A stretch of DNA of 64,000 bases from the NCBI GenBank assembly GCA_030407315.1, contig JALQPE010002334.1, positions 1 to 64,000 on the forward strand, given 5' to 3'. Every line of letters begins with the position of its first letter. Position 1 is the first letter of the stretch. Origin of the DNA: Asparagopsis taxiformis (lineage: Eukaryota; Rhodophyta; Florideophyceae; Bonnemaisoniales; Bonnemaisoniaceae). Of the stretch, positions 2,492-60,889 are shown in pieces. Under the pieces are notes generated by a model. The model saw only the letters and a program-made list of their open reading frames with translations. It was not told the origin of the DNA and made no database searches. Made by a program: the position numbers and the translations under genes.

Positions 2492-2574
2492 GTCCGACCA
2501 TGTGTTACTGTCTCCAGGAACGTGTTCGATGTGATAGGTAAATCAGCTCAAGTAGAGCGCCCAACGTACTACTT

Positions 2575-21213: not shown

Positions 21214-23667
21214 CTATCTATTGCTCCTATCGTACTTGTAATATTCGACGGTGTGGATGTGGTCCGTGAGGACGTCCTTCTCCGTCTTCAAGTAGATGTG
21301 GCCGCGCGTGGGCAGGCCATAGACTAACTTCTCGCCTGCAGGAAGATCTCCTCGGCTGAAGCCGACCCCGTAATGGTAAAGGTCACCGCGACCAACCAAT
21401 ACGGAATAGGGTGGCACCCAAAAGATGAGAGGGGGAACCTTCCACATATCGGCGCCCGGACTGGCCAGGCATACATGACTATAAGGGGCAACTACTATAG
21501 AGAACCCATCGGCTCCGCTCGACATCATGAAATATGATGGAGACGTGGTAGGACTTCCAACACTATTCGTCGCTACCTTGAAGTCCGTGTGCCCATCCTG
21601 GTCCGCAGCCCCATCTGCTGTAAGAAGCAGCCGCAATCCTGTCTTCGGGAAGAAGACAGGATCCTCACCCTCCATTCCCAACTTCAAGAACTCCGCACAA
21701 ACACCAAGAGCAAGCTCTGCCACCAACTTGTTCTTATACATCTCCAAATTCCCCTCCTCCAACTTGTCGCACAACTCACGCCGCGGCAGAGAGAGGCGCC
21801 CACGACCACCATCGATGCGGTCCTTCGCATCACCCACGTTGTGGATGAACTGCCACGGCGAAGGATCGAAGCCGGGCTTTGCGAAAGCTGGCGGCTCGTC
21901 CTGTGGCTCCCTGTCGTCATCGTTAGAATCAGACTGCTGGGAGGGTTTTTCAACCTCCTCAACCAGCGGGAACTGCCTAGCGAAGTGACCGAACAACTCA
22001 TGCGTCGCATTACCAGCCGTGGACGATGCCAACAGGCCTTCCATAACAATAACCCCCAAGTTTTCCAACAATGCCTTCTTCACCGCAAAGTACCTGTCCA
22101 CCACCGTATCCTCAGCACCCGGCGATGCAGCTGCCTGGAATGCTGCCGCCCTCATTTCCGCCCGAACCGTCTCCACCGTCGTACTTTCCATATAGTACTT
22201 CATCCGGCTGCCAGACGCAATTGCGCTGGGGAGAACGGCGGCCACATTCTCATCGACGATGCTGTCGGGAATGGGATTCTCCTGGGCGTCGTCGAACTGG
22301 AGAACCGGCTCCCGAGAGCGACCTCGGGAAGCCGACTTGGATTTCTTTGACGACGACTTTGATGAAGTCTCACCGAGCCTTCTCTTTTTGGTAGAAGGCT
22401 CGGGCGTCGCAGAAGCGGCTTCCAAGTTACGCTTCCCGAGGATGGAGTTTTCACCCGCATCCTCGGGGGCGCTCTCCAGCTCGACGACCTCCACAGCACC
22501 ACCCGCCGTTCCACCACGACCGGAACGACTCGCTTGCAGGCGGGTACTCCTTCTGGGCATCACTTTCCTCCCAGAAGTTTCCACTCCGGGCGGTGCAGAA
22601 TCACTGACTTCAATGACATCTTCGTCAGGATCTGCACCGCCCTTCGCACTGCTGCCCTCGACCACATTCTCGGGAGTAGGGCCCTCCGTCGAAATCCTCG
22701 CAACCGTCTTCTGTCCAACCCCACCGGATGGTGAAGGGACGAAGCTGTCATCGCTGGAGCTTCCCGAACTGCTAGCAGATGCAGAACGGGAAGCTTCGAC
22801 AGCGGGGGCCGGAGCAGCAGGGTGCTGCTCGGCAGCCGGAGTCGCAGGCTCAGGCTGCGAAGCCGGTGAGACCTGCTCCTGCGCGGCTTGGACAGGACGG
22901 TTGGGGGTACCAGTCCCGGCGTGGGAAACTGGACCAGAGCGTTCGCTGCCATCCTGGGGACCACGCGCAGTCGGCTTGACCGGGGTCACCGCAGGGGAGG
23001 ATGCAGACACGGCAGGGGTAGAGACAGGAACAGGGGCAACCTCGGAATTGCTGGAAGATTCCAGTTGAGGTGGTGGGGGCAAAGGAATGGAGGATGAAGG
23101 GATGGGCAAGGAATTGGAAGAGGAAGGGATGGGGGCATCATCACCACATGTGGCTGGGAGCGCAGCATGTGGGATGTCTGGGTACATCGCGTGAAAGCGT
23201 TTCCGCATTTGCATGTCGCGGTACCCAGTGACGCGCAGGAGCATTTTCCTGGCGTCCTTCCCGAAGACAGACTTCTTACGGGGAAAAATATTTTCGTAAC
23301 TGTAACCATCGGGGGGGCCTTCCTTGGGACGGAAGTCTGCCCAGCACCCCTTCTTGGGGACCATCTGAGCAAGAACTTCGACAACGCGCGAGCGAATGTC
23401 GAAGCTCTTGCTCGGGTCACCCCGGCTGGGAATTGACCCATCCAGCATCCTCAACACATCCGACACGTTCCAGTACTCGGCCACCTCCTTCACGTACCCG
23501 AAGATTTCCAACAAACCAGCAATCCATTCCTGCCCAATGGTACCAACCGAGTACGGTTTCAGCCCGGCCGACCGACGGCTACAAGTGTAGCGCGCCGTCA
23601 TCTCCAGGATGAAACACTTCTGCACATCCGGAGCACTCCTGAACGACCCATTGAACAACAAGTTCAC
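21214..23667 (-). pseudogene. locus II, 2OG-Fe(II) dioxygenase part (continues the ParB-like frame)
   Basis: This frame opens at a GTG only, because it is the second part of one gene: residues before it (CTV in the same register) continue the ParB-like frame ending at 23664 after a one-base shift. It has a helical region, a Pro/Ser/Ala-rich linker with basic TKKRRLGE and SSKKSKS motifs, an SRMKYY block, and a C-terminal double-stranded beta-helix. HTD at 693-695 gives the metal HxD pair, the distal His is in DLYHYGVG (765) and the 2-oxoglutarate Arg in TRGHIYL (788), numbering from the GTG. All catalytic residues are kept, so only the frame lesion breaks the gene. Probable role: oxidation of a modified DNA base, as in TET/JBP enzymes; inferred. 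Confidence 0.85.
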
Positions 23668-24860
23668 CGTACACCAGCCAGATCCTCTGTCGAAGAAAAC
23701 TGAACGAACTCCGGCCTGTTCGGGATGCTCGACCAGTATTTGAAAGCAGGGCTTTCAATGGTCTTGAACCCTCGCGCGATCGAGACGTAGCGCATGAGCT
23801 GTCTCGGACGAATCCAGCTCAGCGCTTTCCGTTCTTTTATGTATTGAACGGTCGGCTCGATCTTCTTCTTTCCCAGGCGGTGGATATTGATGAACTCCAT
23901 CACAGAGCACACATTGTCAGCAACTGTTACCTCGCTGACATTGTGGGTGTGGAAGTTCATCAGCCGTGAAAGCGGGAGTACTTCTTCGGAGCAGAAGACA
24001 TCCCGGCCAAGCCGAGTCGGTGGGAGGAGAAAGTCGACTGGAATAGTTCCAAAGCGACGGTAGATGTCAGACTTGACAAACTCCTCCCACTCTGGACTGT
24101 CCTTCGCAGGAGCAGGTCCAGCCGACTCGAGAATGGCCTTCAACGCGGTCACTCGGTGAGATCCATCGACATATTGCAGTCGTACTTTTGCATTGGAATC
24201 AATCACCTCGCAGACGGACACGCGTGAAGCAATCACGGAAAATCCCTGAGTGAGAAACGTTTTCTTCAACTCATCAACGCGATGCGGCCTGACCACCCTG
24301 GACACGACTGCCGGAGGAGAAACATCCAGGGGGGAAATGAAGACTGGAATGTTTCGGCAGCTCTCCGGACTTATGTCGTAGTCCACATCCACCGGGATGG
24401 GCACTGTGCCAGGGTAGGCCAGCCTGGTGCTGCGGAGAGGCTTGTTCGGTACGATGTCACGAGCGTTGTGATCATCGACCTTCTCCGCATCCTCTGCCAA
24501 GTCGCTGCCGGACGCGATGATCATGTCCGGAGCAGGCGAGCTGGGCAGAGGAGCACCAGATCCCTCGACGGCTGGCGCCGCTTCGGCAGATTGAGCCGGA
24601 AGCGGAGTTGCGGGAACGCCAGCGTCGATTGTCGGGACAACCGCGGGATCGGAAGCGGAAGGGGGGGAGGGGACGGGCTTAGGTGCTGGGCTGAGCTGGG
24701 TCAGCGCTGCAGCAGCTTCGCAAACGTCCATGGGGACAGGGGGGGCCAGAGAAGGAGAAGGAGAGGGAGAAGGAGAGGGAGAAGGAGTGGGAGAATCGTT
24801 GTCACGGCGGCTGGCAGAGCGCACCTGGCGGTCGAAAGCGTTGGGGGATTGTTGAGCCAT
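23664..24860 (-). pseudogene. locus II, ParB/sulfiredoxin-like part
   Basis: The start is set at the ATG at 24860 in GCAATGG; the open frame upstream to 24929 begins with TTG. A Ser/Pro/Ala low-complexity N-terminus (about 150 residues, with repeated PSPSPSP) precedes a ParB-like domain. SRVVRPHRVDELKKTFLTQGF resembles the ParB start, and DGSHRVTAL at 232-240 is the nucleotide-binding motif. The frame stops at TGA (23664-23666) overlapping the dioxygenase frame. In the intact paralogue at 26437 and in locus III the sequence runs on as GC(T/V)-type residues, showing that a single base is missing near 23673. Either a mutation, a sequence error or frameshifting explains this. Confidence 0.85.
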
Positions 24861-25066
24861 TGCTTTGGTGAGTGATTGACAAACGAAGAGTGAAAGATTG
24901 AGAAAGAGAGAAGAAGATCTGAACGACAAGCTGTTTTGCTGCGTAAGCTGAGTAAGATAGGCGAAACTTAGAGATCTGACATATTCCTATTAGTATACAC
25001 CCTGGTAATGATATTCAGCGGTTGACCAATCCGAACCTTCCACATCACTTTTCGTTGTACGACAAT
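24861..25066. promoter_or_regulatory. upstream region of locus II
   Basis: About 200 bases between the probable start codon and array A3. It must contain the 5' UTR and core promoter of this gene, so the palindromic array begins unusually close to the promoter. Confidence 0.4.
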
Positions 25067-25386
25067 TACAGCTCAGGCAGTTTACCAAGGATCCTTACAG
25101 CAAAGCCATCGTTACGATGACTTTGCTGTAAGGAAACGTTTCATTACAGAGGCCAGGAATTTTTTTACCGGGTAAAGAAATCATGGCCACTGTAATGTTT
25201 TGTTTCCTGACAGCAAAGTCATCGTTACGATGACTTTGCTGTAAGAAAACGTTTTCATTACAGCGGCCAGGAATTTTTTTACCGGGTAAAGAAATCATGG
25301 CCACTGTAATGAAACCTTTCCTTACAGCAAAGTCATCGTAACGATGACTTTGCTGTAAGCATCCCTGGTAAACTGCTCCATCTGTA
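25067..25386. repeat. palindromic array A3
   Basis: TACAG...CTGTA ends with 20-bp inverted terminal similarity (GGCAGTTTACCAAGGATCC against GGGATGCTTACAG-type sequence on the other side). It holds three 39-nt palindromes, one with GCC instead of GTC in the left arm, separated by TTTACCGGGTAAA spacers. Confidence 0.85.
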
Positions 25387-25741
25387 AGCCGTTGGTCTCA
25401 ACCCTCGCTCTCGTTTCTGTTGTCCTCCTTCATCATCTCCACCTACCTTCCCCCTACACACCACCTCTCTAATGTCACTCTACCCACCCTTTGGTGCATG
25501 AAATATTTTCTTACCACTGCCATAGTCTACACATACTGCTGCCTTCATACCTCTGCATGCCTACCCTTCAATCTTTCTTCCATCTTTCTCTACCGTGCTA
25601 GGCTTAGACCATGCTCTGTGCACATCTGACTTACTTAATATCATTGTATAGCTAGAAACTAGAATAATAATTACATCACTAGAGTACACTGCAAATGTTA
25701 GTAACTATGGTTGGTGTGGTACACAACACCCTAACTCCTTC
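25387..25741. other. intergenic, nothing recognised
   Basis: About 350 bases between arrays with short frames only. Confidence 0.4.
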
Positions 25742-26213
25742 ATGAGTAAACTTTGCGCACAGAACCGTTCAATACCAGGTAGTGCAGCCAGCGCAAACCA
25801 GGCTTGCACGACGCAGAGTGCTCCCCAGAGCCGTCAACAGTCGTCCAAACCATCGTTGTACGATGTTCCCGGCTCCACACTTCCCTTCTCACCCTTCCCA
25901 GGGTGGGAGACGGACGAAACTCCCAACCGCTTACAGCCGAAGCCGTTTACCCGGGATGCTTACAGCAAAGTCATCGTTACGATGACTTTGCTGTAAGGAA
26001 AGGTTTGATTACAGTGGTGAGAAAATTTTACCGGGTAAAAAAATCAGCAAGAATTTTTTACCCGGTAAAAAATTGTGGCCGCTGTAATGATTTGATTTCT
26101 TACAGCAAAGTCATCGTTACGATGACTTTGCTGTAAGAAATCAAATCATTACAGCAAAGTCATCGTAACGATGACTTTGCTGTCAGCACCCCAGCGAAAC
26201 TGCATCATCTGTA
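25742..26213. repeat. palindromic array A4 with outer flank
   Basis: The core 25932-26213 has TACAG...CTGTA ends, the TTTACCCGGTAAA spacer and three 39-nt palindromes, two of them nearly abutting at 26099-26184. The outer part (25800-25931) is the inverted counterpart of 19856-20000, including GACGGACGAAACTCCC and CCAAACCATCGTTG. With A1 it gives locus II a pair of inverted outer flanks. Confidence 0.8.
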
Positions 26214-26436
26214 AGCCTTCCTCACCTCAATGTTGTAACCAAAGACGACTGCGATATTACCTTGTTCTATTCTAGTAGTGCCCACCATAGTTTCCTCCCC
26301 TTCTCATATTAAATTGAGTATTGTATATCTCTCGACCCGTCTACATACGCAAACGTCATGTACTAGCCTAACTTTCATCGTTTACTTGAAGGCGGCCTTG
26401 ATGCCTGCCATAGAATGCTATTAAGAACTAATTTCA

Positions 26437-29400
26437 TCAGATATCTAAACGCTCCCAGTAGTTGACATTGAAGGGAGGCTGTAGCAACTTCTCCCTGGAA
26501 GTTCGCAGTGATAGATGGGACCGGATAGGATGCTGGTACCTCACCGAAGAACGACCCTCCGCGAATCCCATTCCTCCGTGATACACGTCCGTTCGGCATA
26601 CAAGCAGGGAATACGGTGGGATGCGCACGTTCGTCACTGGCACGCGGTACTTTTCTTTCGCTGGATGACTTAGGCACACATGGCTGAACTTGGCGATACG
26701 AATGATGAACCCATCCGCACCAGCAGCCATCATGAAATATGATGGCGAGTTGAGAGGACCAGTTCCAGTTCCCTCACGGACGGGAACATCGGTATGCATA
26801 AGTTGCTCCTGACTACCTTCTGCGGTCAAAATCAGACGAAGACCCGTTTCTGGAAAGACCACCGCTTCTTCTCTTCCAAACCCGAGCTTCAGGTTCTCCG
26901 CACAAATCGCCTTACCTAGCTCCAGAATCAGCTTGTTCCTGTACTGCCGCGCGCTTTCTTGCTCAAGGTCATCGCAGATGCTTTTCCGGTCCGTCTTGAA
27001 TACACCAGTGCTGTCTTTCGGTCGAAGTGGTTTCCACGGGTTCTTCTGACTTGCACTTGAGCCACTTGTAGTACCTTGGAATGTGCTGGCCATCTGTGTG
27101 AATAACTCGTGCGTAGCTGCTCCCACTGTAGTAGAAGAGAAAATGTCTTGCAACACCACGTAACCAAGCTCGTCGATCATTCTTCTCTGGTAGCTGAAGT
27201 ATTGTTGGCTTTCACAAGAACCGAGGGGACATACCAAAGTAGAGTAGCCTGCAGCTGCTTCCATTATCTCCGTCCGGATTGTATCAATGTCTTCTTCTGT
27301 GATATAATACTTCATTCTCGAGTTGGAAGGAACGCATAAAGGCAGCTTCTCAGGTATGTCCTCTGCGAATGTGCGGTCTGGAAGGGAGTTTTCTTGCTCG
27401 TCAGTGAAGAGTGGTGCTTCTTCTCCAGTCGTTCGTTTTCTTGCATTGACTCTACTCTTCTTTTCCCGGGGAGGCCCAATCTCAATGTTGTCATCCGGCG
27501 TATTGGGCTCAGAAAACTTCGCGCTAGTATCTTCCCTTCTTCGCTTCTTATCCAACCTGGACTCGTTTTCATCGCCGCTTCCACCAGAACTCCTGCTTCT
27601 TCCCGAATTCTCCTTGTCCACTTCGGCCGGGCTAGTGCTGTAAGTTTCTGGTGTCCTGATTCGAAGTTTCAATATCACAGAGCGGTTCTGCGCATCTCCA
27701 GCTTGTTGTCCAGGCGTGTCTATGTCCATGCGACCACTATTGTCCAAGTTGATATCCAGACTTTGCGTATCGCCGCTTTGTTTCCTTCCCTGAGGAAGAT
27801 CTTCTCTGACAATCCTTCCCGGCGAATTATCCCTGGCACGACTTTCCCGCTCTGCCCTTGAAGCTGAAAGACGTTCCTGTTCTTTTTGGAGAACAGCAAG
27901 ACGTTCTGCTTCCCTCTTCTCAGCTGCTGCAAGACGCGTGGCAGGACGTTCCTGTCCTCCCTCTTTTGCTGCGGCAGGACGGTCTTCTGCTTCTTTCGGG
28001 GTGCTCAGAGGTGCCTCTTCTATTGCTTTCGTCGCGACAGCAGGAATCACTTCTTCAGCCACCACATTTGGAGTAATTTCCTGTTCTTCCTCCACAACAG
28101 CAGAAACTTCCTGCTCTGCTTGGGCTTCGGCAGATACTCCTTCTTCTGCTTGAACAGGACCAGAAGTTTCCACAGTTTCCTTCTCTGTAGAATTATTTCC
28201 CTGTTCTGCGGCAGTAGGTGCTTCTTCGTCTTCTGCTTTGGCGCCATCAACAAGTGCTTTTTCTATTTCTCCGGGGGTCATGCGATTCCGTTCCCTCTCC
28301 TCCTCCGCTTTCGTCTCCTGCATTGCCTTTGTCCCGGTAGCATATTCCAGTTTGTCGTAAAAACTGTTTGTAAACATCCCGTTCTTGGTTCTCAGACTGC
28401 TACTGTCTACCACGTCGTCATGAAAGTCGACAAGGACGAATACAATGCGCTCTCCAATGCGATGATCATTATCCCCGACCTCCTTCGCGTTTTCTGCTGC
28501 CAAATCCGTTCGCACGAATTCCTCCATCGTTGCAGAGTTCAACCACTTGCGGACGACCTCTGCCATATCATAGATGGCCAACAGAGCCAGTAGCCAAGTG
28601 CGCATCGTGAACGGACTTCCGCTTCCGATATTTCTGACAAGTCCTCTCTTCCTCCTCATCCTTGTCCACGACGCTGTCATCTCGAGCACAAACCACTGGA
28701 ACCACTCCTTATCGCGCGTCCCGCGTCCGTCCGTGCCATTGCGGAATATTGCGTTATTGACAAGATCGAGCACGCACCCGTACATATCGGCAGAGTCAAT
28801 TCGAGAAAAGTCCGGATCTCTTCCCTCGGTTCTTGCATCCTCGATTTCTCTGTTCCTATCCAAAGCATTGTAAACGCTAGGGATAGAGCTCCAGTACACG
28901 AAAGCAACGCTGTCTGTGCGATTGAACCCCTTCGCAATGTTGATGTACTGCCTATACGAGTTCTCCGAACGGTTCCTGTCGGACGGCAGAATATAGCTCA
29001 CTTCTTTCAGAATAGGAATAAGCCGGACAACAGGAAGATCCATCTGGTTGGAAAACCTGAGAAACTCTATGACCGCACACACATTGTCGGCAATGCTCAC
29101 AGAAGCGACATCGTGAGTTTGTATATTGGCTTCGAGAGACAGTTTCAGAACCTCCAGCGCATCGAAAATTAGACGCCCGTTCGGCGCAATCAACTGTTGT
29201 ACCCAAACCAATTCCAAGGAATCCCTGTTCTTTCCTGAGTACTTCTCCAGGCATAGTTGCAGAGCAGCTATGCGATGAGAGCCATCGATGCAGTAAAACT
29301 CGTCTCCTTCGTTATCTTCCATTTTGCAGACTGTAATCATAGTTCCAGTGGTAGAGAAACCTCTATCCATGAAAATGCTGGCCAGTTCGTTTACACGACC

Positions 29401-29697
29401 CGGTCGCACCAAACGGGAGGTCACTGTCGGAAATTTCACTTTGCGAGGATCAACTTGCACTTTAGAAGAGCTGTACTGAGCAATAGTGATGCTTTTCTCT
29501 TCAGCAGAAGGAGAATTGCTCTTCTCCGCTGTAGTATTCATGATACTATTGTCTCCCATTGTAATCCCTGCAATCTCAGTTCGTTCAATCGGTTCTCTGT
29601 TCAAATGTTGTGTAGACGATGAAATCCACAATTGTGGTACCTCCGAGTGCGCTTCCCGTCTCTCAGCTTCCTCTCTTATACTGTCCGGACAAGACAT
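26437..29697 (-). CDS. locus I: ParB-like + 2OG-Fe(II) dioxygenase fusion, intact
   Basis: This 1086-aa ATG-started frame is the only uninterrupted member of three paralogues. Residues about 85-260 are the ParB/sulfiredoxin-like domain, with DGSHRIAAL at 138-146 as nucleotide-binding motif. A helical domain follows (about 300-450), then a long charged, Ala/Glu-rich linker with probable coiled coil (560-625) and two basic nuclear-localisation-like motifs (DKKRRRE near 716; REKKSRVNARKR near 744). The C-terminal third is a dioxygenase fold: LGYVVLQDIF near 844, HTD at 968-970, distal His in DVYHGGMG at 1040 and 2OG-binding Arg in PIRSHL at 1059. The spacing between the metal histidines is 72. 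It lies between arrays A4 and A5. I infer a nuclear DNA-base or nucleic-acid oxidase; the substrate is unknown. Confidence 0.9.
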   Translation of the reverse strand: MSCPDSIREEAERREAHSEVPQLWISSSTQHLNREPIERTEIAGITMGDNSIMNTTAEKSNSPSAEEKSITIAQYSSSKVQVDPRKVKFPTVTSRLVRPGRVNELASIFMDRGFSTTGTMITVCKMEDNEGDEFYCIDGSHRIAALQLCLEKYSGKNRDSLELVWVQQLIAPNGRLIFDALEVLKLSLEANIQTHDVASVSIADNVCAVIEFLRFSNQMDLPVVRLIPILKEVSYILPSDRNRSENSYRQYINIAKGFNRTDSVAFVYWSSIPSVYNALDRNREIEDARTEGRDPDFSRIDSADMYGCVLDLVNNAIFRNGTDGRGTRDKEWFQWFVLEMTASWTRMRRKRGLVRNIGSGSPFTMRTWLLALLAIYDMAEVVRKWLNSATMEEFVRTDLAAENAKEVGDNDHRIGERIVFVLVDFHDDVVDSSSLRTKNGMFTNSFYDKLEYATGTKAMQETKAEEERERNRMTPGEIEKALVDGAKAEDEEAPTAAEQGNNSTEKETVETSGPVQAEEGVSAEAQAEQEVSAVVEEEQEITPNVVAEEVIPAVATKAIEEAPLSTPKEAEDRPAAAKEGGQERPATRLAAAEKREAERLAVLQKEQERLSASRAERESRARDNSPGRIVREDLPQGRKQSGDTQSLDINLDNSGRMDIDTPGQQAGDAQNRSVILKLRIRTPETYSTSPAEVDKENSGRSRSSGGSGDENESRLDKKRRREDTSAKFSEPNTPDDNIEIGPPREKKSRVNARKRTTGEEAPLFTDEQENSLPDRTFAEDIPEKLPLCVPSNSRMKYYITEEDIDTIRTEIMEAAAGYSTLVCPLGSCESQQYFSYQRRMIDELGYVVLQDIFSSTTVGAATHELFTQMASTFQGTTSGSSASQKNPWKPLRPKDSTGVFKTDRKSICDDLEQESARQYRNKLILELGKAICAENLKLGFGREEAVVFPETGLRLILTAEGSQEQLMHTDVPVREGTGTGPLNSPSYFMMAAGADGFIIRIAKFSHVCLSHPAKEKYRVPVTNVRIPPYSLLVCRTDVYHGGMGFAEGRSSVRYQHPIRSHLSLRTSREKLLQPPFNVNYWERLDI

Positions 29698-30369
29698 TCC
29701 CTACCTACGTTCAGTCCTGATGAACCTTACGCTGCACCCGCTCAGCACCTCTGACTCTACCTGATCCTGATACCTCCACAAAGCGTTTAGCCCTTTCCAT
29801 CAATCTACACCTAATAGTATGTACCTCTAGCGCATATAATGCAATCGAACCCGTTTACCTCACCACGTCAATTATCATTCATATTCCAACAACCTATTTC
29901 ATCCACACTCTCCACCTCGCTTCTTCTTCCGTACCATTGATTCCTATCAATCGATTCTACGTGAGTTTTATACATTTACTACGATCCACCTCTCCTACAA
30001 GTCTGAAAAATTCATTTCTACACTAACTTTTGCTACTCACAAATGAACGGTTCCCGTGCAGGCCACTGCTTGAATTTCTTCCTATTGGCGTACTCGGCTG
30101 CAAAGGATTCATAGACTATTTAAACGGTGATCATATAAATGGTTTTCAATGTGCTCCAATGGACAATACACCAAAGAACATCAATATGAATTCATTTCAA
30201 CTACCTATTCACTACTGCGATTCAGTTTTCTTGCATACCAAATCTCATTGCGTTCCTACCCTAGTCGATTCAAAATGCTTCCTCTTCGTCAGTTGATCAA
30301 TATTCCTTATTCCTTACAACGAGCAGGTCCTCTGGACATCCTAAAGTTGGTTACTTAACCTTAACTATC
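29698..30369. promoter_or_regulatory. upstream region of locus I
   Basis: About 670 non-coding bases between the start codon and array A5. It holds a Pro/Thr-codon-like pyrimidine-rich stretch but no supported gene. The promoter of the 1086-aa gene is expected here. Confidence 0.4.
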
Positions 30370-30912: not shown

Positions 30913-31032
30913 CATACCTCCCTCCATCCTCTCAGATCCTCTCCCCACTACTTTGCACCAATCCACCACCGCCCTAGAGTGTACAATTCATATGTGATGC
31001 ATCTGGTTATTCATTTTATTCTTCCCTAAAAA

Positions 31033-34000
31033 TCATGCAGCCCTCGGTGGAAATCCGTCTCGCCTACATAGTGCATATATCTCTCCACCCTCCAGCAGTC
31101 CGGGTCCGTGCCTTACCTCCCTCATGTTCTCATCATATTCGCATACACTCCCATTGCAATAGTGCATACCAAACACCTCAGTGACTCCCTCACTCATCTC
31201 CACAATTACTGTTCGTCGCCTCTCTTCGACCTTGAACACTCCTTCATCAGTTTTTTGCAAACCCAGGCAAACTCCATAAGCTGTACCTTGCTCATCTCTC
31301 GCACTCTCGTTCCTCAGGATAAAGAACGCTAGAACAATAAAAAACCGCGGTTCATAATTAATTCTTCCCCGCATTATCTCTGATGTGAGACGAGACGCCG
31401 GGTACAGAATCGCTTGTGAAGTTGCACCATCCTCACATTTCATCTGTTCAGGGCAAACAGCATGGATGATAGCTCCTGATTCTAGAGAGCCAGACCTCTG
31501 CACTGTTTTCCTTCCCCACTCTGTCGTAGTGCTTCTAGAAACTCTTCTCACCCATTCGGCATACTTTCCACACCCGCTTGTTCCGCTTCCGTACCTTTCG
31601 GTAAAGAACCGTTTGAAAACACCTACAGCACCCTCTGCCATATCACATTTTCCATTCATGTACTCCTTGACCTCGTCAATAGATATACCTCCATGCCCTC
31701 TCCACGTCACAATTTCACCATCCGCCGACAATATCTTTCCTCGACGCTGGGAGAGAAGCTGGAGAACCGGTTCCTGGAAGCAGTTTTTCACTACCTCGTC
31801 TTCCACATCTATTTCTCTCCCTAGCTCCTGTGAAAGAACGTTGACCATTTGAGAGCATTCGGACGAGGACCAATGTTGTGGCTCCATGCCGATTTCGCGC
31901 AAAACAATGGCCACTCTCGTCTGCCAGTCATCCGCAAGAACTAATTCCAGCGCTGAAAGCTGTTCGCTTTGGTGATTGGACATTCTCACACCTTTCTTCA
32001 GCGGCTGATGCATCCGTTCGAATATAAGCTCCTGCACGTGCTTCACAGAGCCGTAGGCAGGAAGCGTATGAACACAAAACTCGACAAGACGATGAACATT
32101 AGGCTTGTCCAAATGTGCTCCTGCTCCCTTCACTTTCCGACAATACTCATTCAACGTCTCCACGTAGTCTACAGTTCTTCCCAGAATGTATTCATTCCTG
32201 CCACCTTCTCCGTCAGCCGTCTCTACTTCATGGGGACCGTCTTTCCACCATACGGGCATGAAACTAATACACGAAACCAGCTTCTGAAACATCACTACTA
32301 GTTTGACGGCCCCATCAAATTTTTCACGATGACCTTCCCCTTTCCCATCCATCATTCGAGCTGCGTTTTCGAATGCCATAGGTGCTATCAGAAGCACACT
32401 GAATATGTCACTCATGTTCATGGAAAGCAGATTGTTGGTTCCAAATAAACGGTTCTGCCTTCCCATCCTGAACTTCTTCAGAGCGCCCAGAATTTGCAAT
32501 TCAGCTACCTCTCGAATTCGTGGGCTGGCAGCTGAAATACAAGCGTTCAGTACATCTTGTGCCAGTCCAGACAATAGATGGTCAGGTGCTATCACTGCGG
32601 AACGGTACGGGTCAAAAATTGCTGGGACAACTGAAACTCCGTTTTCCGTCTTCGGTACTTCTTCCTGCACTGCTTCCAAGGAAGTGCTCAGGACATGAAA
32701 TGGTAAATCTTCCCCTTCTTCTGCAGCCAGTCCGAGAGTGCGAAGCTGGGTTTCTGTGGCATCCTTACGTGTCGATGCATTCCGATACTTGCTCCTGGCA
32801 TGCGTCGATGTTTGCCCGTTCACTACCGAAGTGTATGCATTCTTCGTGCCACCAGTACTGCTCAGGTCATATTTGCGGAAACTGCAGATGTGGCACGGAG
32901 AGTTTGATGTGTGTCCAAGAACATCCAGGGTATGTGAAACTGCAGGATAGTCTCCAATGCTCCCCACTGGGTCTAGAAATACCACAATATCTTCTCCCTC
33001 TGCATTTTTCGTTGGGAAACCCTCTGTGCTTCCTCGCACTATATCTTGAACGATATATCGCAATACACAATTTGTGGACACTCCCGGAGGTGGCAAACCA
33101 ATCACTCGAACCGCTTGGTAGCTTCCCCTTTTCCGAGGCGGTAGATTGAGAGGTAACATATAGCATCCACCAAAACTTCCCTTCCTGCTTGTGAATGGTT
33201 CAAAGTCATCCGTGTAAAGGAGAAATCGGTAAACAAAGTAGTTTCGACCATCCTCCAGCTTTCCCCAACATGGTGCATCTTCTCGCGGAGACGCTGGGTG
33301 CCATTGCGACCTGTGGTCTCCGAAACCATCCGAGAACACCCCTGAAACACGAATTTCTTCATAGTTGGGGCTTCCTAGTCTATCGGGCGGGTTTCTGGCT
33401 TCAGCAAAGCTCGCGCCCGGTGAAAAGCAAAGTAACATGGTGGATGCTTCTCCGACCTGCTCTTTCAAATACCTGTTCACCAATACGACGTGTGGAACAA
33501 TATCACCCTCTTCCATTCCAATTGGTAATAGAACGGTTATCACGTCCCCAGCTCGTGTTCCTTTTCCCTTGGCTCCTGCTCCGATTACACATTGCGATAT
33601 CGCTCGCAGAGCATGCTGCCTCTCCCATTCCAATAGATGTGACATTCGCGGCTGCAGATATTTTTCGACATGCACATCATGCTCACCGTCGTGTCGAGCC
33701 TCATAGGTAACTATGGTCCTAGCATGAAGTTCCCACAACGACGTAACCGCCACTCTTCTCCTCTTCGGTTTCCCACCATCTCTGTCATTCTTCCTGAACC
33801 CTTTTGCTCTTTCGATGACGGCAACCTGACGAGCTCCTGGATGACATCGGATTCGAATTGCTGTTCCATCAGGTACATAAATGTGCTTCAAACCCTTTTT
33901 CCCATCGCTGTCAATGGGAACAACTGCTGTGCGAACGAATGGGTCGCTCAAAACACCCCTCCTGCACTTTGCAATGAACGAATCTTCAATGCTGCACTCT

Positions 34001-34836
34001 GCGGTTGATTTTTCTCCTTCCGAGCTTCGATTGTTCGCATCACTGCGGAATGCTTTAAAGATTGGTCGAGTCTGGACATCTTTCAGAGCCCATGTGCTTG
34101 GGAGTACAATACGAACTTTCGCCATTCCTCCACAATTGTCTCTGTCATCTGTTGTTCCACGGGTTCCTACTGCACCTCGATGCTGTGCAGCTCTTGCTCC
34201 GCTCTTTCGAAGGTCTATCGGAAACTCGATGTCACAGCTCTTTGCATAGCAGTGTTTCCTCAAGAATGGTAGTATCTTCTGTCGCATCACAGAGTCCGAC
34301 GGGACGTGCTCACTTGGATCTCTGCGGAAATTCATTCCGAACAGGGTACCTTCATAGTGGGCTCTTGTCATTCTTTGAGTTCCACTCAGCTGAAGAGCCC
34401 CATACATCGCAGGCCATTGTAGTAATGCCTTGAAATCACCACATGCTTCATCCCCAGCATTTCGGTCTATCGGGCCTCCAGTTGAAATGGAATCAGAACC
34501 TCGTCCGGTTGCTTCTTCCGATTCCATTAGCGTGCTCGATGCTACGTAGATGTCACTTCCAGCTTCATCGTTGTTGCTGTACACATCAATACAACCTTCT
34601 ATTGTGTCACCCATAGGGATTGGGGACTCCAATAGGTCATCTGTGGTACACTCACGTCGTAGCTCATTACCTCTCGGGATTTCTTTGTTCATGCAGGCTG
34701 CATCACTGCTGCGGATTTCTCCCTGCAGTTTCCCAGGAAGCTGTTTACTGGGACTGGCCACATTGAGTGAATCGAATCTCGCCTTTGTCCTACGACTTGT
34801 GGTTTTCTTTCGAATAGGAGTCCGTCTCGGAGCCAT
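31033..34836 (-). CDS. TNP2/CACTA-like transposase 1
   Basis: A 1267-aa ATG-started frame with a basic, Thr/Arg-rich N-terminus (RKKTTSRRTKARF). The core contains YRFLLYTDDFEPF (Asp 543-544), GSFGGCYMLPL, and FLDPVGSIGDYPAVS (Asp 622 and 629), then a GHTSNSPCHIC Cys motif (Cys 648 and 651). This order parallels the DYPA...SPCxxC region of TNP2-type transposases of En/Spm (CACTA) elements. FERMHQPLKKGVRMSNH further on is shared with the second copy at 54348 and could supply a catalytic Glu. CACTACGGTGTTG ends at 11075 and 37515 match the predicted superfamily. Assignment to TNP2 is by motif memory, and an RNase-H-like DDE fold is assumed. Confidence 0.75.
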   Translation of the reverse strand: MAPRRTPIRKKTTSRRTKARFDSLNVASPSKQLPGKLQGEIRSSDAACMNKEIPRGNELRRECTTDDLLESPIPMGDTIEGCIDVYSNNDEAGSDIYVASSTLMESEEATGRGSDSISTGGPIDRNAGDEACGDFKALLQWPAMYGALQLSGTQRMTRAHYEGTLFGMNFRRDPSEHVPSDSVMRQKILPFLRKHCYAKSCDIEFPIDLRKSGARAAQHRGAVGTRGTTDDRDNCGGMAKVRIVLPSTWALKDVQTRPIFKAFRSDANNRSSEGEKSTAECSIEDSFIAKCRRGVLSDPFVRTAVVPIDSDGKKGLKHIYVPDGTAIRIRCHPGARQVAVIERAKGFRKNDRDGGKPKRRRVAVTSLWELHARTIVTYEARHDGEHDVHVEKYLQPRMSHLLEWERQHALRAISQCVIGAGAKGKGTRAGDVITVLLPIGMEEGDIVPHVVLVNRYLKEQVGEASTMLLCFSPGASFAEARNPPDRLGSPNYEEIRVSGVFSDGFGDHRSQWHPASPREDAPCWGKLEDGRNYFVYRFLLYTDDFEPFTSRKGSFGGCYMLPLNLPPRKRGSYQAVRVIGLPPPGVSTNCVLRYIVQDIVRGSTEGFPTKNAEGEDIVVFLDPVGSIGDYPAVSHTLDVLGHTSNSPCHICSFRKYDLSSTGGTKNAYTSVVNGQTSTHARSKYRNASTRKDATETQLRTLGLAAEEGEDLPFHVLSTSLEAVQEEVPKTENGVSVVPAIFDPYRSAVIAPDHLLSGLAQDVLNACISAASPRIREVAELQILGALKKFRMGRQNRLFGTNNLLSMNMSDIFSVLLIAPMAFENAARMMDGKGEGHREKFDGAVKLVVMFQKLVSCISFMPVWWKDGPHEVETADGEGGRNEYILGRTVDYVETLNEYCRKVKGAGAHLDKPNVHRLVEFCVHTLPAYGSVKHVQELIFERMHQPLKKGVRMSNHQSEQLSALELVLADDWQTRVAIVLREIGMEPQHWSSSECSQMVNVLSQELGREIDVEDEVVKNCFQEPVLQLLSQRRGKILSADGEIVTWRGHGGISIDEVKEYMNGKCDMAEGAVGVFKRFFTERYGSGTSGCGKYAEWVRRVSRSTTTEWGRKTVQRSGSLESGAIIHAVCPEQMKCEDGATSQAILYPASRLTSEIMRGRINYEPRFFIVLAFFILRNESARDEQGTAYGVCLGLQKTDEGVFKVEERRRTVIVEMSEGVTEVFGMHYCNGSVCEYDENMREVRHGPGLLEGGEIYALCRRDGFPPRAA

Positions 34837-35797
34837 CTTGATGTTTTTGTTCTTTTCTTCTTCGCTCAGTTTTGTTGCATAGAATACAACTCTAAACTTC
34901 TATGACATGACTACTATCTCAATACAGTACTACTACTTTTAACCGTTACGAAACCTTTCCAGGCTTTCATTCGATCCAATGAACTGGTTCACCACAATGC
35001 TTTGCCCTATGCTCATTGCTTTATGCACATTGATTGCTATTTCATCCGGACTCAACATCGTTTTGCTATCTTGTATCGCATCCCCTAACCACAAACCCAG
35101 CCAAGATGTATCCATTTCCGGAAAACGGCCGTTTATTTCGCAGTGATGCTCTAGGCACTAATACTGAATCTGATTTTCTCATACACGTACTTCCTACTCG
35201 TATACTCTACCATTTTCGGCCCTATTTACAAGTTGAAAGCACAATCTCTCGTTGAATCGTACTCGGTGTGATATCTTAAATTAGCATAAATTTATATATT
35301 GCAATGCAGATTCACTGCTCGCTTGCAACATGAAAATTATAAAATTTCTCCCACACTGCTGTTTCCTAGCCGCCCACATCCACGTGGCCCGCTTTGACTG
35401 CCTGCCAAGTGTGCTCAGAGCATGCAATGACGTCATCGATATATACCGTCCAAATCATCACTGGAAGCGCGGACTCCTCGTCCAGGAAAGTGCGCCATTT
35501 TTCCTACTCCTCGCCTCCCCCTTTCCAGTAGGCCCGATATGCTAGTGTTTTTCCTATATTTCTGTAGTGATGACGTCATTATAGACTAGAGAAGGCGGTA
35601 GAAGATACAATAATTTTGCGCCTGTTCTGCCAGGTCATGTGCTTCAAAGCGTAATTCGCACCCTAGGTATCGTTTTTCTGGGCCTCCCATCGCACCGCTC
35701 CGTTTCAAATTCATCCCTCTATTGTTAGAGTACACGTCATTTCCGCCCGCAGAGTGCTACTTAAACAACAGATTCTGGAGATCCCTGTTTCCATCTT
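34837..35797. promoter_or_regulatory. upstream region of transposase 1
   Basis: About 960 non-coding bases with only short frames. The transposase promoter is expected near 34.9 kb. Nothing else recognised. Confidence 0.4.
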
Positions 35798-35935
35798 CAT
35801 ATCCGTCGGAAGCAAAGCAACAACCCTGGCCGTGGAAGCCGTATAGATCATCTAAACTGCTTCCAAAGCGTAAGTTTTAGATCATCAATACGGCTCCCAA
35901 GGCCAAAGTTGTTGCTTTGTCTCCGACGGATATGA
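35798..35935. repeat. long imperfect hairpin upstream of transposase 1
   Basis: Arms TCATATCCGTCGGA (35798) and TCCGACGGATATGA (35935 end) extend inward over GCAAAGCAACAA, GGCC and GGAGCCGTAT-like sequence to a loop near 35865, about 60 bp per arm with scattered mismatches. It lies roughly 1 kb upstream of the transposase start. A similarly placed hairpin exists upstream of transposase 2. Confidence 0.75.
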
Positions 35936-36649
35936 ACCATGATGGTACGTTTCCACAACTCACGCCACTAACCCAGTTTTCTATTCGTTTTCTCTTTCTC
36001 AGGTTTCCAGTCGGTGAGTGTTCCAATTCTACTTTCATTTATCTTTCTCTCTTACCACTTCTCCACTAATTTTCTTTTCTGCCTGTGAGTACATATCTCA
36101 ATTTGGGATGCAATGGTATTTGTTAAGGTACGTTAGTCTCCTAATCACCATCAATTTCCCTCTCCAATTCAACGTCACTAACTTGTTTCCTTTCTCTACA
36201 TCATTTTTTCTTCTTCTCTTCATTTCCTAGCTTATTCATGCAGCTCAATCAGTTGATAGATTTCTAGACTTTTCTAGTAGTTTTAGTTTTACTCGTCGGA
36301 ATAGTGTTAGTTGTAGTAGCATTTTTAACATAGGGATTGTTTATTCTCAATGTAGCCTGCGCAAATAAACAAATCCAGAGTGAAGCTTCCCATATCGCAC
36401 CCTCTTAGATTGCTACCTATCCTACCGCGTATACCTCTCGCTAGCTCATAGTCACTACGAAATAAAAATTCCTAGCCGTACTATTCTGTCCATTCCCATA
36501 TGAATACCGTCCATGCCCCATCCTCATAGCGCTAGAACTGCCTTCCTCTACCCCAGAAAGATGCCCACGACAGCGTGACGCTCCATCTCATCCACCACTC
36601 CCAGACACCGAATTTTACTATATCAGGACACTACTTTTACTGTCTCCAG
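35936..36649. other. AT/pyrimidine-rich interval
   Basis: Contains pyrimidine-rich runs (TTTCTCTTTCTC) and ATGATGGTACGT just after the hairpin. No gene supported. Confidence 0.4.
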
Positions 36650-37160
36650 GTGCTGCCCAGGGCAGCACGAAATACTGTCTCCAGGTGCTGCCCAGGGCAG
36701 CACGAAATACTGTCTCCAGGTGCTGCCCAGGGCAGCACGAAATACTGTCTCCAGGTGCTGCCCAGGGCAGCACGAAATACTGTCTACAGGTGCTGCCCAG
36801 GGCAGCACAAAGTACTGTCTACAGGTGCTGCCCAGGGCAGCACGAAATACTGTCTACAGGTGCTGCCCAGGGCAGCACAAAGTACTGTCTACAGGTGCTG
36901 CCCAGGGCAGCACAAAGTACTGTCTACAGGTGCTGCCCAGGGCAGCACAAAGTACTGTCTACAGGTACTGCCCAGGGCAGCACAAAGTACTGTCTACAGG
37001 TACTGCCCAGGACAGTGAAAATCACTGTCTCCAGGTACTGCCCAGGACAGTGAAAATCACTGTCTCCAGGTACTGCCCAGGACAGTGAAAATCACTGTCT
37101 CCAGGTACTGCCCAGGACAGTGAAAATCACTGTCTCCAGGTACTGCCCAGGACAGTGCAC
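36650..37160. repeat. 35-bp tandem repeat array, subterminal to the CACTA right end
   Basis: About 14 units of a 35-bp repeat. The core is an odd-length palindrome, GTGCTGCCCAGGGCAGCAC, followed by AAATACTGTCTCCAG-type spacer. The last five units change to GGTACTGCCCAGGACAGTG. The palindromic core and position about 0.4-0.9 kb inside the end fit the subterminal repeats that transposase or accessory proteins bind in CACTA elements. Confidence 0.85.
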
Positions 37161-37515
37161 CGTGTTGGTTCCATCTATTGTCCCAGGCAGCGTATTTCAC
37201 TATCCGGCCATGTTGCCTTGGCCAATACAAAACACTATCCGCCAACACTGCCCAGTACAGTAAATTACATCATATCCAACTATTGAATAAATCATTAATT
37301 TTTACTGTCTCCATTCACTGCCTCAGACAGTACTGTGAGACAGTGTTTTTTACTGTCTGCAGACAGTGTTCCGTACTGTCTGCCAGACAGTGCAAATCAC
37401 TGTCTCCAAGTGTGGCATTAATTTTCATTTGCCGCATAGTGATTTTTACTGTCTCAGACAGTAAAAATCACTGTCTCGCAGTACTGTCTGAGGCCCCCTT
37501 TTCAACACCGTAGTG
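37161..37515. repeat. CACTA-type right end with subterminal ACAGT repeats
   Basis: Repeated TTTACTGTCT/AGACAGTAAA palindromes lead up to CAACACCGTAGTG, which ends at 37515. This is the exact inverse of the CACTACGGTGTTG at 11075 and 59671. So 37515 is the right edge of an element lying to its left. The base after it is T of TTC, while CAT precedes 11075, so no shared target-site duplication is evident between the two. Confidence 0.8.
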
Positions 37516-38190: not shown

Positions 38191-38720
38191 GTGCACTGCA
38201 CCTGGCTTGAGAAACTAGGAATAATACCCGGTTTTATTTTGGCCTCCCAAAAGCCAGGTGCACCAACGCCATTGGCCGGTGGTAGTTTGGACAACCTCGG
38301 CCAATGGGGTTGGTGCACTTGGTCTATACCGACCCAAAATAATACCCGGTATTATTTTGGCCTCCCAAAAGCCAGGTGCACCAACGCCATTGGCCGAAGG
38401 TATCCGGCTACCACCGGCCAATGGGGTTGGTGCACTTGGTCTATACCGACCCAAAATAATACCCGGTATTATTTTGGCCTCCCAAAAGCCAGGTGCACCA
38501 ACGCCATTGGCCGGTGGTAGTTTGGACAACCTCGGCCAATGGGGTTGGTGCACTTGGTCTATACCGACCCAAAATAATACCCGGTATTATTTTGGCCTCC
38601 CAAAAGCCAGGTGCACCAACGCCATTGGTTGAAGTTATCCGGAGTACCCCCAGGCAATGGGGTTGGTGCACTTGGTCTACACCCACCCAACTTTATACCC
38701 GGCCAGACTCCTGTTCTCAG
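38191..38720. repeat. palindromic repeat array B1 (period about 117 bp)
   Basis: Four to five units, each with a central AATAATACCCGGTATTATTTT palindrome, flanked by GGTTGGTGCACTTGG / CCAGGTGCACCAACG (inverted with respect to each other) and CCATTGGCCGG. It borders the 3' side of dioxygenase locus III. It is a different sequence from arrays A1-A5 but the same kind of structure: nested palindromes. Confidence 0.85.
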
Positions 38721-39013
38721 GAACTGAAAATTTTACCGGGGATAGTGAACGATGTAATATAATACCAGGTTTTACTATCTGCTATCGTTTCTTGCATCTA
38801 CTGAAGAGGTTTAGAATTTGCAGCTCCTGTAGGTAGAGCTTTCTGTGGAGAATAGCTTTCTGCATGTGGTGTTTGTTACATTTGTGAAGTTGATCTGATT
38901 ATATAAAGAATCCATGCAGTATCTCTTTTATCATGTTCTATTGGAATTGTGTTTATTACTCTACGGATTCATACCCAACTAAGGCTTCAACACGGCTGGA
39001 CAGATGCCCTTCA
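38721..39013. other. 3' flank of locus III
   Basis: Non-coding, about 290 bases. Confidence 0.4.
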
Positions 39014-41215
39014 TCACTTCAATTTCGAATTGCCCTCCCAATGTCCAACGACATATTCTCCTTCTTCACTTTGATGCTGCTCAGTTTTGAGGAATATGTG
39101 AGATCGGATCGGGAACTTGTATTGAAGACCCTTATTGCTCTCAAATCCTTCCTCGTGGTGATAAACATCCCCTCGGCAGACAAGAACAGAATATGGTGGT
39201 ACTTCACACCTCTTCATTGGAACTCTGTATAACTCTCTGTTGGGATGGGATAAACAGACATGACTGTAGGGTGAAAGCACGAGGCCGAATCCATCTGCGC
39301 CGCTTGACATCATGAAGTAGGATGGCGGAGAAGGGGGACTGTTAACTTCATCGATTCCCACTTCATAGTCTGTATGTCCAGCACGAGGTTTAGTCCGCTC
39401 TCCAGTCAGCACTAAAGTAGTTCCAGTGCTGGGGAAGGCCATCGGGTCCTTCCCACTAGTCCTCAATTCCAAACCTTCCGCACAAATACCTAGACCGAGC
39501 TCAACAATCATCTTCTTCCGATAGAGATTATTATTGTTATCCTCGAGGTCATCACATAAGCTCTTCCGCTTTGTTATAAAGATTCCTCTGCCCTTCTCAC
39601 CTTCTTCATCAGAGTTTTTCCCACCCATCATAGCCATGCACCACGGTGTCCAGTCCGGATCTCTGCGGGTGTCACCGGATTCAGAGTTCTTCTTGGCATC
39701 CTCGAGACGTTCCTCAAACAACGCAGAAAAATGAAGGAGCAGTTCGTGGATCGCATCTGCAGTAGTAGAAGACTTGAATATTCCGTCCAGAATTGTAAAC
39801 CCAACCAAGTCTATTTCATTTCGTTTCTCTCGGAAATAAGCCCTCGAGAGAAACTCAGCGGAAACATTTTGTGCCGAATAGGCACTCGCTGCTGCTTCAG
39901 CGACCTCGGCTCGAAGCGTATCGACCAGTTTCCCATTCACATAGTATTTCATTCGACTGTCGGGATGAATGATAACAGGCAGTTTCGCTTCTATACCTTC
40001 CTCCACATCTTTGTCAGGGACATCATTTTGTTGCCTGTCCGAATACTGACCTCCTTGAACCGCGTGGACTGCAGCGTCTTTGCCGGATTGCAAATTTGCG
40101 TCTTCACGCATCTTTTGCTTCTTCTTCTGCCGCGGCCTGCTGGTATCCTCTCCCACCAGGTCAATAACCTCTTGAGGGGTGACATCCACCAATTTCCGTT
40201 TGGATGGTAGAATCATTGGCGGCGTCTCCGTATTCCTCGGCTTTGCCTTTAAGGGCACGAAACCACTGCTGTGCTTGGCTTTCATCAACTTCCTAGGCGT
40301 AGAACTGGTAACAGGTGTTTCCGTGTCCTCCAGCTCAGGTAAAACAGGTAGGCCGACATCCGCTGTAGATAACATAGCGTCTCCAGTGCCATCAACCTGA
40401 TTTCGTACACCTTTCATCGGGTCCTCCGTTGTCCTTCCAGAAGAATGTTCGGGACATTCTTCGCGGACATCTTTCGTTCCAGACCCATCGCTCTTCCTAG
40501 ATTCAGGACCTCCTTCACCATCTCGACCAGTTCTTGGATGACCAACTGACATATTCGCCGGCGACTTTCCACCCTGCTCTGGTCTGAGCGTGGCACTTCC
40601 GGCTGCCACTGGGCTAGGTGATTGTTGCAGGTCATTTTCATCACCGTGGTCATTTCTTCCTCGATTTGCACCAGTTGGTTCAAGCTCTCGAGTTCCTACG
40701 TTCTTCTGCAACACATCCCCAACTTCACAATCTCCAGGTTTCGAAGAATTGTTCTCGGTAGGCGCAGTAGGCACTGCGCGGTCCGTTGTAACCTGCTTTG
40801 CGCTTTCGGAATCTGCCGTTTTCCCTGTCGCCTCTTCACCAACCTGTGTTGCAGCACCGACCTCAGCGTTAACACGATCCGATATTTCCAGACTGCCCTG
40901 TGTCTGCTGTTGGGTAAGTACATTTGGACTCTGTACCACGTCCGAGCGATCAATGGCAGCATTTGAAGTATCACCATACGATGCGGATTGTTGTCGTGGT
41001 TGAGGTGCAGTATTCCCTTCCAAGGATTTTCGCCTAGTCCGCCTTTCCTGCACACCTATTTCAGGCGCGACGGAATGGTCGAGAGAGTCATCCGATAGAA
41101 TTGGGCCGTTGAAAACCACATAACGGATTTCTTTCATCATAGACCGCGTCAATGCTGCACGTATACCTCTCCCAGTTGGTGCGTCGGAAGGATAGAAATC
41201 TTTGAGGACAGTCAA
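39014..41215 (-). pseudogene. locus III, 2OG-Fe(II) dioxygenase part
   Basis: A 733-codon frame that opens at TTG. It is in the same register as the ParB-like frame ending at 41342, separated only by an in-frame TAA and 42 readable codons. It has a low-complexity polar linker, a basic RQKKKQKMRED nuclear-localisation-like motif, SRMKYYVNG, and the dioxygenase core: HTD at 614-616, DVYHHEEG with distal His 686 and PIRSHIFL with Arg 704 (TTG-based numbering). The HxD-to-His distance is 72, identical to the two paralogues. All metal and 2OG ligands are kept, so the protein would work if the stop is read through or if the base call is wrong. Confidence 0.85.
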
Positions 41216-41341
41216 AATGCGATATCGTATGGTTTTTCGTGTTCGTCCACCTGGCTCCGGTACTTCATGTAACTTCCTGAAACATGGATGAGGTGAGGAA
41301 TGCCAGGAGTTTTCTTTCCGTACAGCTTTCTCAAGTATGTC

Positions 41342-42538
41342 TTATATTTCACACATACTGTAGCACCACTTTTGCGCGCATGTCTTTAGACTTATACCAC
41401 CATCTCCTTTCCTACGTTTCCACATCGTCCACATTGCAGTGAGCTCTAGAATGACAAGTTTGGTGTCCACCGAAGCTTTTCGAAACGCAGAAGCGAATAG
41501 GACGTCCACAGTGCATCCCTGCATATTCTTCGAGTCTGGCGGACTAGTTTCAGTTGCAAATCGACTTGGGATAGCTGACCAATGTTCGAACGCCGGGTTA
41601 TTTACGTCTCCAAAGCCCTGCGCAATCGAAACGTACTTCATCATGATTCCTTCCTGACAACCTGGAATGACCTTGTTCTCGACTACAACTTTTGTGCACA
41701 CATTTACCTTCGCCTTCATCAAGCCCTTCATCATCATGAACTTCATGACCGTACAGACGTGGTCAGCAATAGAAACTTCTATCACGTCATGAGTCTTTTC
41801 GTTCAGCTTCTGCGATATTCGCATCACTTCAAGAGGATGAAACATTTCACGGGTTCCAGGTGGTCGGATGAAGTCAACGCTAATGCTCCTCAGTCTCCAT
41901 CGATCAGCAACTGTCGGTTTGTTTTCCACAATCGACTGCAAAGCGCTGATACGATGACCTCCATCAATGCACTGCAGTTTCTTCCGTCCGTCTGACCCCA
42001 TTGTTTCACAGATGGTCATTCGGGTGCCAGTTTCCAGAAACCCCTCGGTAGATATTTTGCTGACCAGATCGCGCACTCTGGCCTCCTGCACAAGACGAGA
42101 AGTTGATTCCGGTTTGGCAACATCTAGCGGATTGATCATTTTAGGTTCAGTCCTGCATTCGACAATGTTGATGTCAATCCCCATCACAGACTCTTCTGAT
42201 GCTTCCATGCCAGCAGGACTCCCCTCGCCTTCACGGACGTTAGACCTCTCCTTGTTTTTCGATTTCACCGTCCCAGGAGTAGATGGAAAGCGTAGAGTGT
42301 TTTTCCCAGATGGTGATATATCGCCAAGGGTTTTTGCTGCCTCTATCATGGCAGCGTCTGCTCCCTGAATGGGTGTCTGGCTATCTGCCGTCTCCCTTCC
42401 CGCTGCAGACGGAGCCCCTCCATCAGCAGAACCTCCGGAGGGTGTTTTATCACCGCCTACCGTCGTTGCAAGTCTCTCTGCAACGCTTTCGACGGTATCC
42501 TTTGGTTCCGCAGCGCGCTCAGTGTCGCTTCCGGCCAT
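41342..42538 (-). pseudogene. locus III, ParB/sulfiredoxin-like part with premature TAA
   Basis: ATG-started 398-codon frame. A polar N-terminus of about 130 residues, then the ParB-like region with SRLVQEARVRDLVSKIS and DGGHRISAL at 192-200. The helical region follows and stops at TAA (41342-41344), after YSMCEI. In the intact paralogue the residue at this point is Tyr 376 (AIYDMAEVVRKW), and the codons after the stop here read DILEKAVRKENS. So one substitution of a Tyr codon to TAA splits the gene. Confidence 0.85.
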
Positions 42539-60880: not shown

Positions 60881-60889
60881 CCAATCATC

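Follow-up and report, generated by a model that had tools for sequence, protein, structure and literature searches.

In fungi, DNA transposons of the KDZ, EnSpm, Plavaka and other groups carry TET/JBP genes, and passages of the report on them propose that these transposons escape methylation-based silencing (Kojima 2025, PMC12730594). Sola1-1_Ec32, a giant transposon of Ectocarpus, joins a ParB-like domain to an N4/N6 amino-methyltransferase that is proposed, in passages of PMC12477816, to bind and modify its own element; those passages also cite red-algal EnSpm elements of giant size that carry several accessory genes, together with Iyer 2011 and Petroll 2025. Here we analyse a window of 64,000 nucleotides of the red alga Asparagopsis taxiformis (contig JALQPE010002334.1, which is contig C2208 of the 141-Mb assembly). 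A 224-kb contig of the assembly bears rbcL (by Pfam) with, as read from its open reading frames, rbcS and cbbX alongside, and we take it for a red-algal plastid. The window holds three paralogous genes, A, B and C, each predicted to encode a ParB-like domain fused to a 2-oxoglutarate (2OG)-Fe(II) dioxygenase. A and B are cargo of a giant CACTA-ended transposon, element 1, which also carries a methyltransferase–SET gene, M; C is cargo of a second element, element 2, which is related to element 1.

The locus resembles the fungal TET/JBP transposons in its extra 2OG-Fe(II) dioxygenase gene, and some of the fungal elements are EnSpm members with CAC..GTG ends (passages of PMC12730594); CACTA/CAC..GTG inverted termini are present in element 1. 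It differs from them in that the dioxygenase is ParB-fused and has no Pfam match, a methyltransferase–SET gene lies alongside and the host is a red alga; the word 'ParB' occurs 0 times in the main text of PMC12730594. M resembles the Sola1-1_Ec32 protein in joining a ParB-like domain to an amino-methyltransferase and in being carried by a giant transposon. Unlike that protein, it has a SET domain, and the passages of PMC12477816 on Sola1-1_Ec32 mention no dioxygenase partner. Bdelloid rotifer N4CMT is likewise a eukaryotic protein in which a bacterial-type amino-methyltransferase is joined to a chromatin domain; according to passages of PMC8885841, it differs from M as a host-captured gene that acts against transposons and has a chromodomain rather than SET. 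Fungal TET/JBP transposons and algal ParB–methyltransferase transposons are thus already published. The ParB–dioxygenase fusion and the combination look new: neither the fusion nor its pairing with a ParB–methyltransferase–SET gene was met in the literature surveyed, which consisted mostly of titles and the first lines of abstracts. The work of Petroll 2025 on Bostrychia moritziana, the most relevant study and one that this survey did not cover, may describe relatives.

Three genes for ParB-like dioxygenases

The three genes and the domains of B are as follows.

26437..29697, minus strand: B, intact ParB-like + 2OG-Fe(II) dioxygenase gene, 1086 residues, a single open reading frame (ORF)
28888..29490, minus strand: ParB/Srx-like N-terminal domain of B with DGSHR, about residues 70–270 (motif and profile comparison)
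26473..27330, minus strand: 2OG-Fe(II) dioxygenase domain of B, about residues 790–1075, with H968, D970, H1040 and R1059 (motif, alignment and fold model)
21214..24929, minus strand: A, the other ParB–2OG paralogue on element 1, whose frame is broken near 23665 here (overlapping ORFs 23664–24929 and 21214–23667)
39014..42538, minus strand: C, third ParB–2OG paralogue, on element 2, with one in-frame stop near 41345 here (ORFs 41342–42538 and 39014–41215, colinear and in the same frame)

All three products share a layout in which an N-terminal ParB/Srx-like domain is followed by a long low-complexity linker and a C-terminal 2OG-Fe(II) dioxygenase. The original prediction, made from the DNA sequence, had placed a DG(S/G)HR motif at each locus, and the translations read DGSHR in B and A and DGGHR in C. 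It had also noted a constant spacing of 72 residues between the first metal-binding histidine and the distal histidine, which recurs in all three proteins, and unchanged ligands HxD, H and R, which we find in all eight sequences of the dioxygenase alignment. The distance from the distal histidine to the arginine is 19 residues in B, 23 in A and 18 in C. By BLASTP, the C-terminal parts of A and C are 41% identical and those of B and C 40%; the corresponding A–B match was not listed by BLASTP, so that this likeness (39% identity) rests on the alignment. N-terminal identities among A, B and C range from 33 to 38% (BLASTP).

Every genome place scored for B (42 of 42) lacks a stop and is 100% (rounded) identical, and 14 reach the top score. 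Neither the break in A nor that in C is fixed in its family. The A frame is open over 1257 residues in the full copy on contig C1830 and over 1080 residues in the copy on C44, and the 1257-residue frame occurs in about 30 of the 124 places listed for A and its near variants. Genome places listed for C number 61, of which the 60 besides the window are 98–99% identical; the frame is open at 1184 residues in 39 and shorter in 22, and the stop site is open in all four of the other fetched copies that hold it. A spliceosomal intron in C was ruled out, the paralogues being colinear across the break and those four copies being open in frame.

The DGxHR-type nucleotide-binding motif is real: D79, G80, H82 and R83 are invariant in the five sequences of the B profile, and DGAHR is read in three of three M-type proteins. 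The ParB fold and DNA binding are putative. Matches to a PHROG ParB-like partition family were obtained with the proteins P0002 and P0003 (E values of 2.3e-4 and 7.8e-5; B's layout) and with M (0.003), and the N-terminal profiles of the B and M families align across the DGxHR motif (probability 95.5). The sole Protein Data Bank (PDB) profile matches of the B family, all weak (E 0.64–1.3), are free serine kinases, SbnI and 1vk1, which we take to be ParB/Srx-fold nucleotide binders; these matches cover the DGxHR region of SerK/SbnI.

The predicted fold of the B dioxygenase domain, modelled at moderate confidence, is of the 2OG type and holds the double-stranded beta-helix on which the original prediction turned. 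Its closest solved structures are amino-acid hydroxylases and halogenases of the BesD/HalA type, natural-product oxygenases and HIF prolyl hydroxylase, at 8–15% identity. AlkB on DNA (4nih) ranks fourth in Foldseek (E 1.1e-4), no better than other 2OG enzymes, and TET structures are not among the structural matches listed, which does not exclude a likeness to TET. Viral structure matches, where named, are mostly PhyH, 2OG or AlkB; many are uncharacterised and a few bear other names. The profile match to TET/JBP or AlkB that had been looked for in the C-terminal domain did not materialize, since no Pfam family was found for any of the eight sequences at E up to 10; Pfam presumably includes a TET/JBP model. 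PDB sequence searches gave no TET match for the dioxygenase sequences or profiles, and those with B or 2OG profiles were mostly empty, one giving three weak matches that include ectoine hydroxylase (E 1.5). The loci and motifs of the original prediction are confirmed; its interpretation, base-oxidising enzymes guided to DNA by ParB, has partial support.

Within the assembly, the dioxygenase domain falls into at least seven groups. P0003 is present at 100%, two further groups lie at 62–63%, and another, on contig C581, is 35% identical to P0002; the reading of the 62–63% and C581 groups covers the dioxygenase part. P0002 was not found in the assembly and probably comes from another organism, because its best match there reaches only E 5e-28. 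Of the 6897 candidates from a domain-sized protein search with A3, not one reached an E value of 0.01 or less. A pattern search for relatives of the dioxygenase domain in prokaryotes gave nine matches, none of them confirmed. A phage or viral origin was rejected as far as tested, with no viral-contig relative and no phage match for B.

The carrier transposon, its partner gene and its palindromes

Element 1, its ends and the partner gene lie at the following positions.

11075..37515, unstranded: element 1, CACTA-ended DNA transposon of 26,441 bp carrying A, B, M, T1, X1 and X2, with CACTACGGTGTTGA at both ends and copies with shared ends
11075..11088, plus strand: left terminal inverted repeat of element 1 (CACTACGGTGTTGA motif)
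37502..37515, minus strand: right terminal inverted repeat of element 1 (CACTACGGTGTTGA motif)
15645..19121, plus strand: M, 1158 residues, ParB-like N-terminus (DGAHR), PF01555 N6/N4 amino-methyltransferase with DPPF (E 2.3e-16) and SET (E 4.2e-6)

Copies on contigs C1830 and C44 align with positions 11075–37515 of the window and each end at the same inverted motif, which sets the length of element 1 in the window; the two copies measure 26,630 and 27,188 bp, respectively. The 32-bp right terminus has 869 exact occurrences (447 + 422) in the assembly, a count that takes in truncated or related elements sharing that end; a reversed control has 0. M is found at 40 of 40 scored genome places with equal score and 100% identity, and the transposase-like protein T1 is 100% identical at 37 of 37; the copy numbers of B, M and T1 are lower bounds, as only the best candidates were scored. 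Element 1 is a giant transposon that was apparently active recently and has many near-identical copies. Its CACTA-type termini rule out a KDZ carrier. A 3-bp target-site duplication was seen in none of the six copies with both ends read (the window, C1830, C44, C632, C1708 and C1569), a count that leaves out C939 and C1629, with one end each, and we therefore call the element CACTA-ended and not a member of EnSpm. The C1569 copy has TA on each side.

M appears to be of the same kind as the ParB–methyltransferase proteins of algal transposons, with SET added; its ParB-like part is recognized from the motif and weak profile matches. This triple fusion is arguably as striking as the ParB–dioxygenase finding. 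Besides its own record, two relatives of M were found. P0005 is 41% identical and contains both Pfam domains; P0006 has PF01555, and its C-terminus aligns to the SET region. Four phage records match M at about 25% identity, in the methyltransferase part only.

The spaces between the cargo genes contain a 33-bp palindrome, ACAGCAAAGTCATCGT(A/T)ACGATGACTTTGCTGT, with 17 sites in element 1 and none elsewhere in the window. Its clusters, the palindromes beside C and the repeats near the ends of element 1 are listed here.

19429..20706, unstranded: palindrome cluster 1 in the M–A spacer, holding 7 of the 17 sites
25210..26183, unstranded: palindrome cluster 2 in the A–B spacer, holding 5 of the 17 sites
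30400..30909, unstranded: palindrome cluster 3 in the B–T1 spacer, holding 5 of the 17 sites
38343..38587 (3 sites) and 53724–54048 (4 sites), unstranded: palindromes beside C with a TACCCGGTA core
36638..37155, unstranded: subterminal array of 35-bp units containing TACTGTCT, near the right end of element 1
11098–11179, unstranded: ACTGTCT-type palindromes near the left end of element 1 (repeat reading)

The C1830 and C44 copies hold 16 and 17 sites of the 33-bp palindrome, which occurs at 8325 places genome-wide (reversed control, 0). Palindrome records with an arm of at least 10 number 67 in the window, as against 0, 0, 0, 2 and 0 in five Markov-simulated windows, where a record may count one site under several spacings. 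The core TACC(C/G)GGTA is present 23 times in the window, 16 times in the element 1 clusters, 7 times beside C and 0 times elsewhere; the element 1 palindromes and those beside C have a common core and different arms. The four sites at 53724–54048 fall in part beyond the region over which an element 2 copy aligns. The motif repeated at the termini (ACTGTCT) differs from the 33-bp palindrome between the cargo genes. Separate repeats for the ends and for the spaces between cargo genes are what self-addressed cargo proteins would need, which is not proof.

The remaining genes of element 1 are the following.

31033..34836, minus strand: T1, transposase-like protein of element 1, 1267 residues, 42% identical to T2
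11923..13503, plus strand: X1, ORF of 526 residues, with matches only below the curated cut-off and no confident family
13779..15140, minus strand: X2, ORF of 453 residues, no family match

T1 has no Pfam match. The C(2)C and H(3–4)H motifs of EnSpm/CACTA transposases were looked for in an alignment of T1 and its element 2 counterpart T2 read by eye, in which CHIC/CHSC stands behind a conserved aspartate and a late H..E region is present.

Element 2 and the surrounding DNA

Element 2 carries, together with C, its own transposase-like gene.

54348..58049, minus strand: T2, transposase-like protein of element 2, 1233 residues, 42% identical to T1

A Ty3-type long terminal repeat retrotransposon with a chromodomain is inserted in element 2 at about 42597–53484 (pol 45783–50372, gag 50312–52801). 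The junction 37515/37516 joins the end of element 1 to a point inside element 2, other copies of which extend upstream; the matching other half of element 2 is absent from the left flank of element 1, so the arrangement is not a simple nested insertion. A third CACTA-ended element starts within 59671–64000; over about its first 490 bp it matches the left end of element 1 at 94% identity, and there the match stops. Remnants of a second Ty3-type pol (reverse transcriptase, RNase H and integrase) lie at 1694–3933. Isolated perfect palindromes were also seen, one of 46 bp at 58898–58943 and one of 24 bp twice, at 1519–1542 and 6126–6149. The contig start (1–520) is an irregular CCCTAAT-type tandem repeat of period 8 that is probably telomeric, and the elements may therefore lie subtelomerically.

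Mechanism and alternatives

A transposon with hundreds of end copies should meet host silencing. We propose that A, B and C form a self-targeted epigenetic module, serving anti-silencing or self-marking; we give this reading an even chance, and clearly less than that to any particular base. We infer DNA as the substrate, the palindromes as targets and anti-silencing as the benefit. The ParB-like part, probably together with the helical region behind it, would bring the enzyme to the palindrome arrays of the element itself, where the dioxygenase would oxidise methylated bases or, less probably, chromatin proteins. Base oxidation could then counter host silencing or help to set an element-specific mark together with M, and with M on the same element this mark may be the element's own. 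VANC of the Arabidopsis VANDAL elements is, to our knowledge, not an oxygenase and has no ParB-like domain. The proposed module is like it in logic alone, that of transposon-encoded, sequence-specific anti-silencing (passages of PMC5735166 and PMC10398659). A more elaborate scheme, which we hold to be decidedly unlikely, would unite writer and eraser on one transposon: M would methylate histones as well as bases (N6-A or N4-C), those bases would be oxidised by B and A, and the ParB-like domains would address all three proteins to parS-like palindrome arrays. If it were true, the element would switch its own state, silent or hidden as against active, independently of host methylation.

Several observations weigh against a self-targeted module. 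B itself has no ParB profile match, A and C likewise have no PHROG match, and Pfam gives none; the M-type N-terminal profile returned 16 weak and unrelated matches from the PDB (best E 0.14). B has no Pfam match above the cut-off and no NCBIfam or PDB-sequence match. The structure prediction of full-length B (1086 residues) is poor, with a mean predicted local distance difference test (pLDDT) score of 41.5, and in the domain model pLDDT is below 50 around HxD (H224/D226) and the arginine (R315). Most of the structural neighbours hydroxylate amino acids, natural products or, as HIF prolyl hydroxylases do, a protein, and are not enzymes of DNA; the palindromes could instead serve the transposase, replication or transcription.

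In a rather unlikely alternative, the ParB-like domain has no part in DNA targeting and perhaps only binds nucleotide, the palindromes are transposase, replication or promoter sequences and the dioxygenase works in trans on any sequence. Promoters and transposon ends often have palindromes nearby. The PDB matches over the DGxHR region of the SerK/SbnI kinases, whose ParB-like domain we presume may only bind nucleotide, would fit this alternative. In fungi, oxidised 5-methylcytosine is also found on other transposons (passages of PMC12730594). Against it, the 33-bp palindromes lie only between cargo genes, the termini repeat a different motif, and the palindromes of element 1 and those beside C combine a common core with different arms. 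We also regard as unlikely that the dioxygenase hydroxylates or demethylates a protein at the element, such as a histone or the transcription machinery, in step with the SET domain of M and leaves DNA bases alone; that SET domain and the BesD/HalA-type, natural-product and HIF prolyl hydroxylase neighbours speak for a protein substrate, whereas M also has a DNA amino-methyltransferase domain, AlkB on DNA is among the top Foldseek matches and neighbours at 8–15% identity do not set the substrate.

It is very doubtful that the enzyme follows a JBP-like route, without methyl removal, to a hyper-modified base by which the element is marked and shielded. Phage and kinetoplastid precedents are reviewed in passages of PMC12730594, and the methyltransferase encoded by element 1 could provide the substrate from within; yet no glycosyltransferase or second-step enzyme was recognized on element 1, where X1 and X2 have no confident family. 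Nothing was found in favour of a domesticated host gene family lying near repeats by chance, an explanation to which we give practically no credence: the copies, identical or nearly so, run to dozens, and complete elements have common ends, which refutes it.

With A, B and C, the range of transposon-borne oxygenases extends beyond the fungal TET/JBP enzymes to a different, ParB-fused family in a distant lineage. A and B stand beside the amino-methyltransferase/SET fusion on element 1, of which there are many identical and apparently recent copies. With a clear 33-bp palindrome as the candidate target, the question of whether transposons direct epigenetic enzymes to themselves can be tested directly here.

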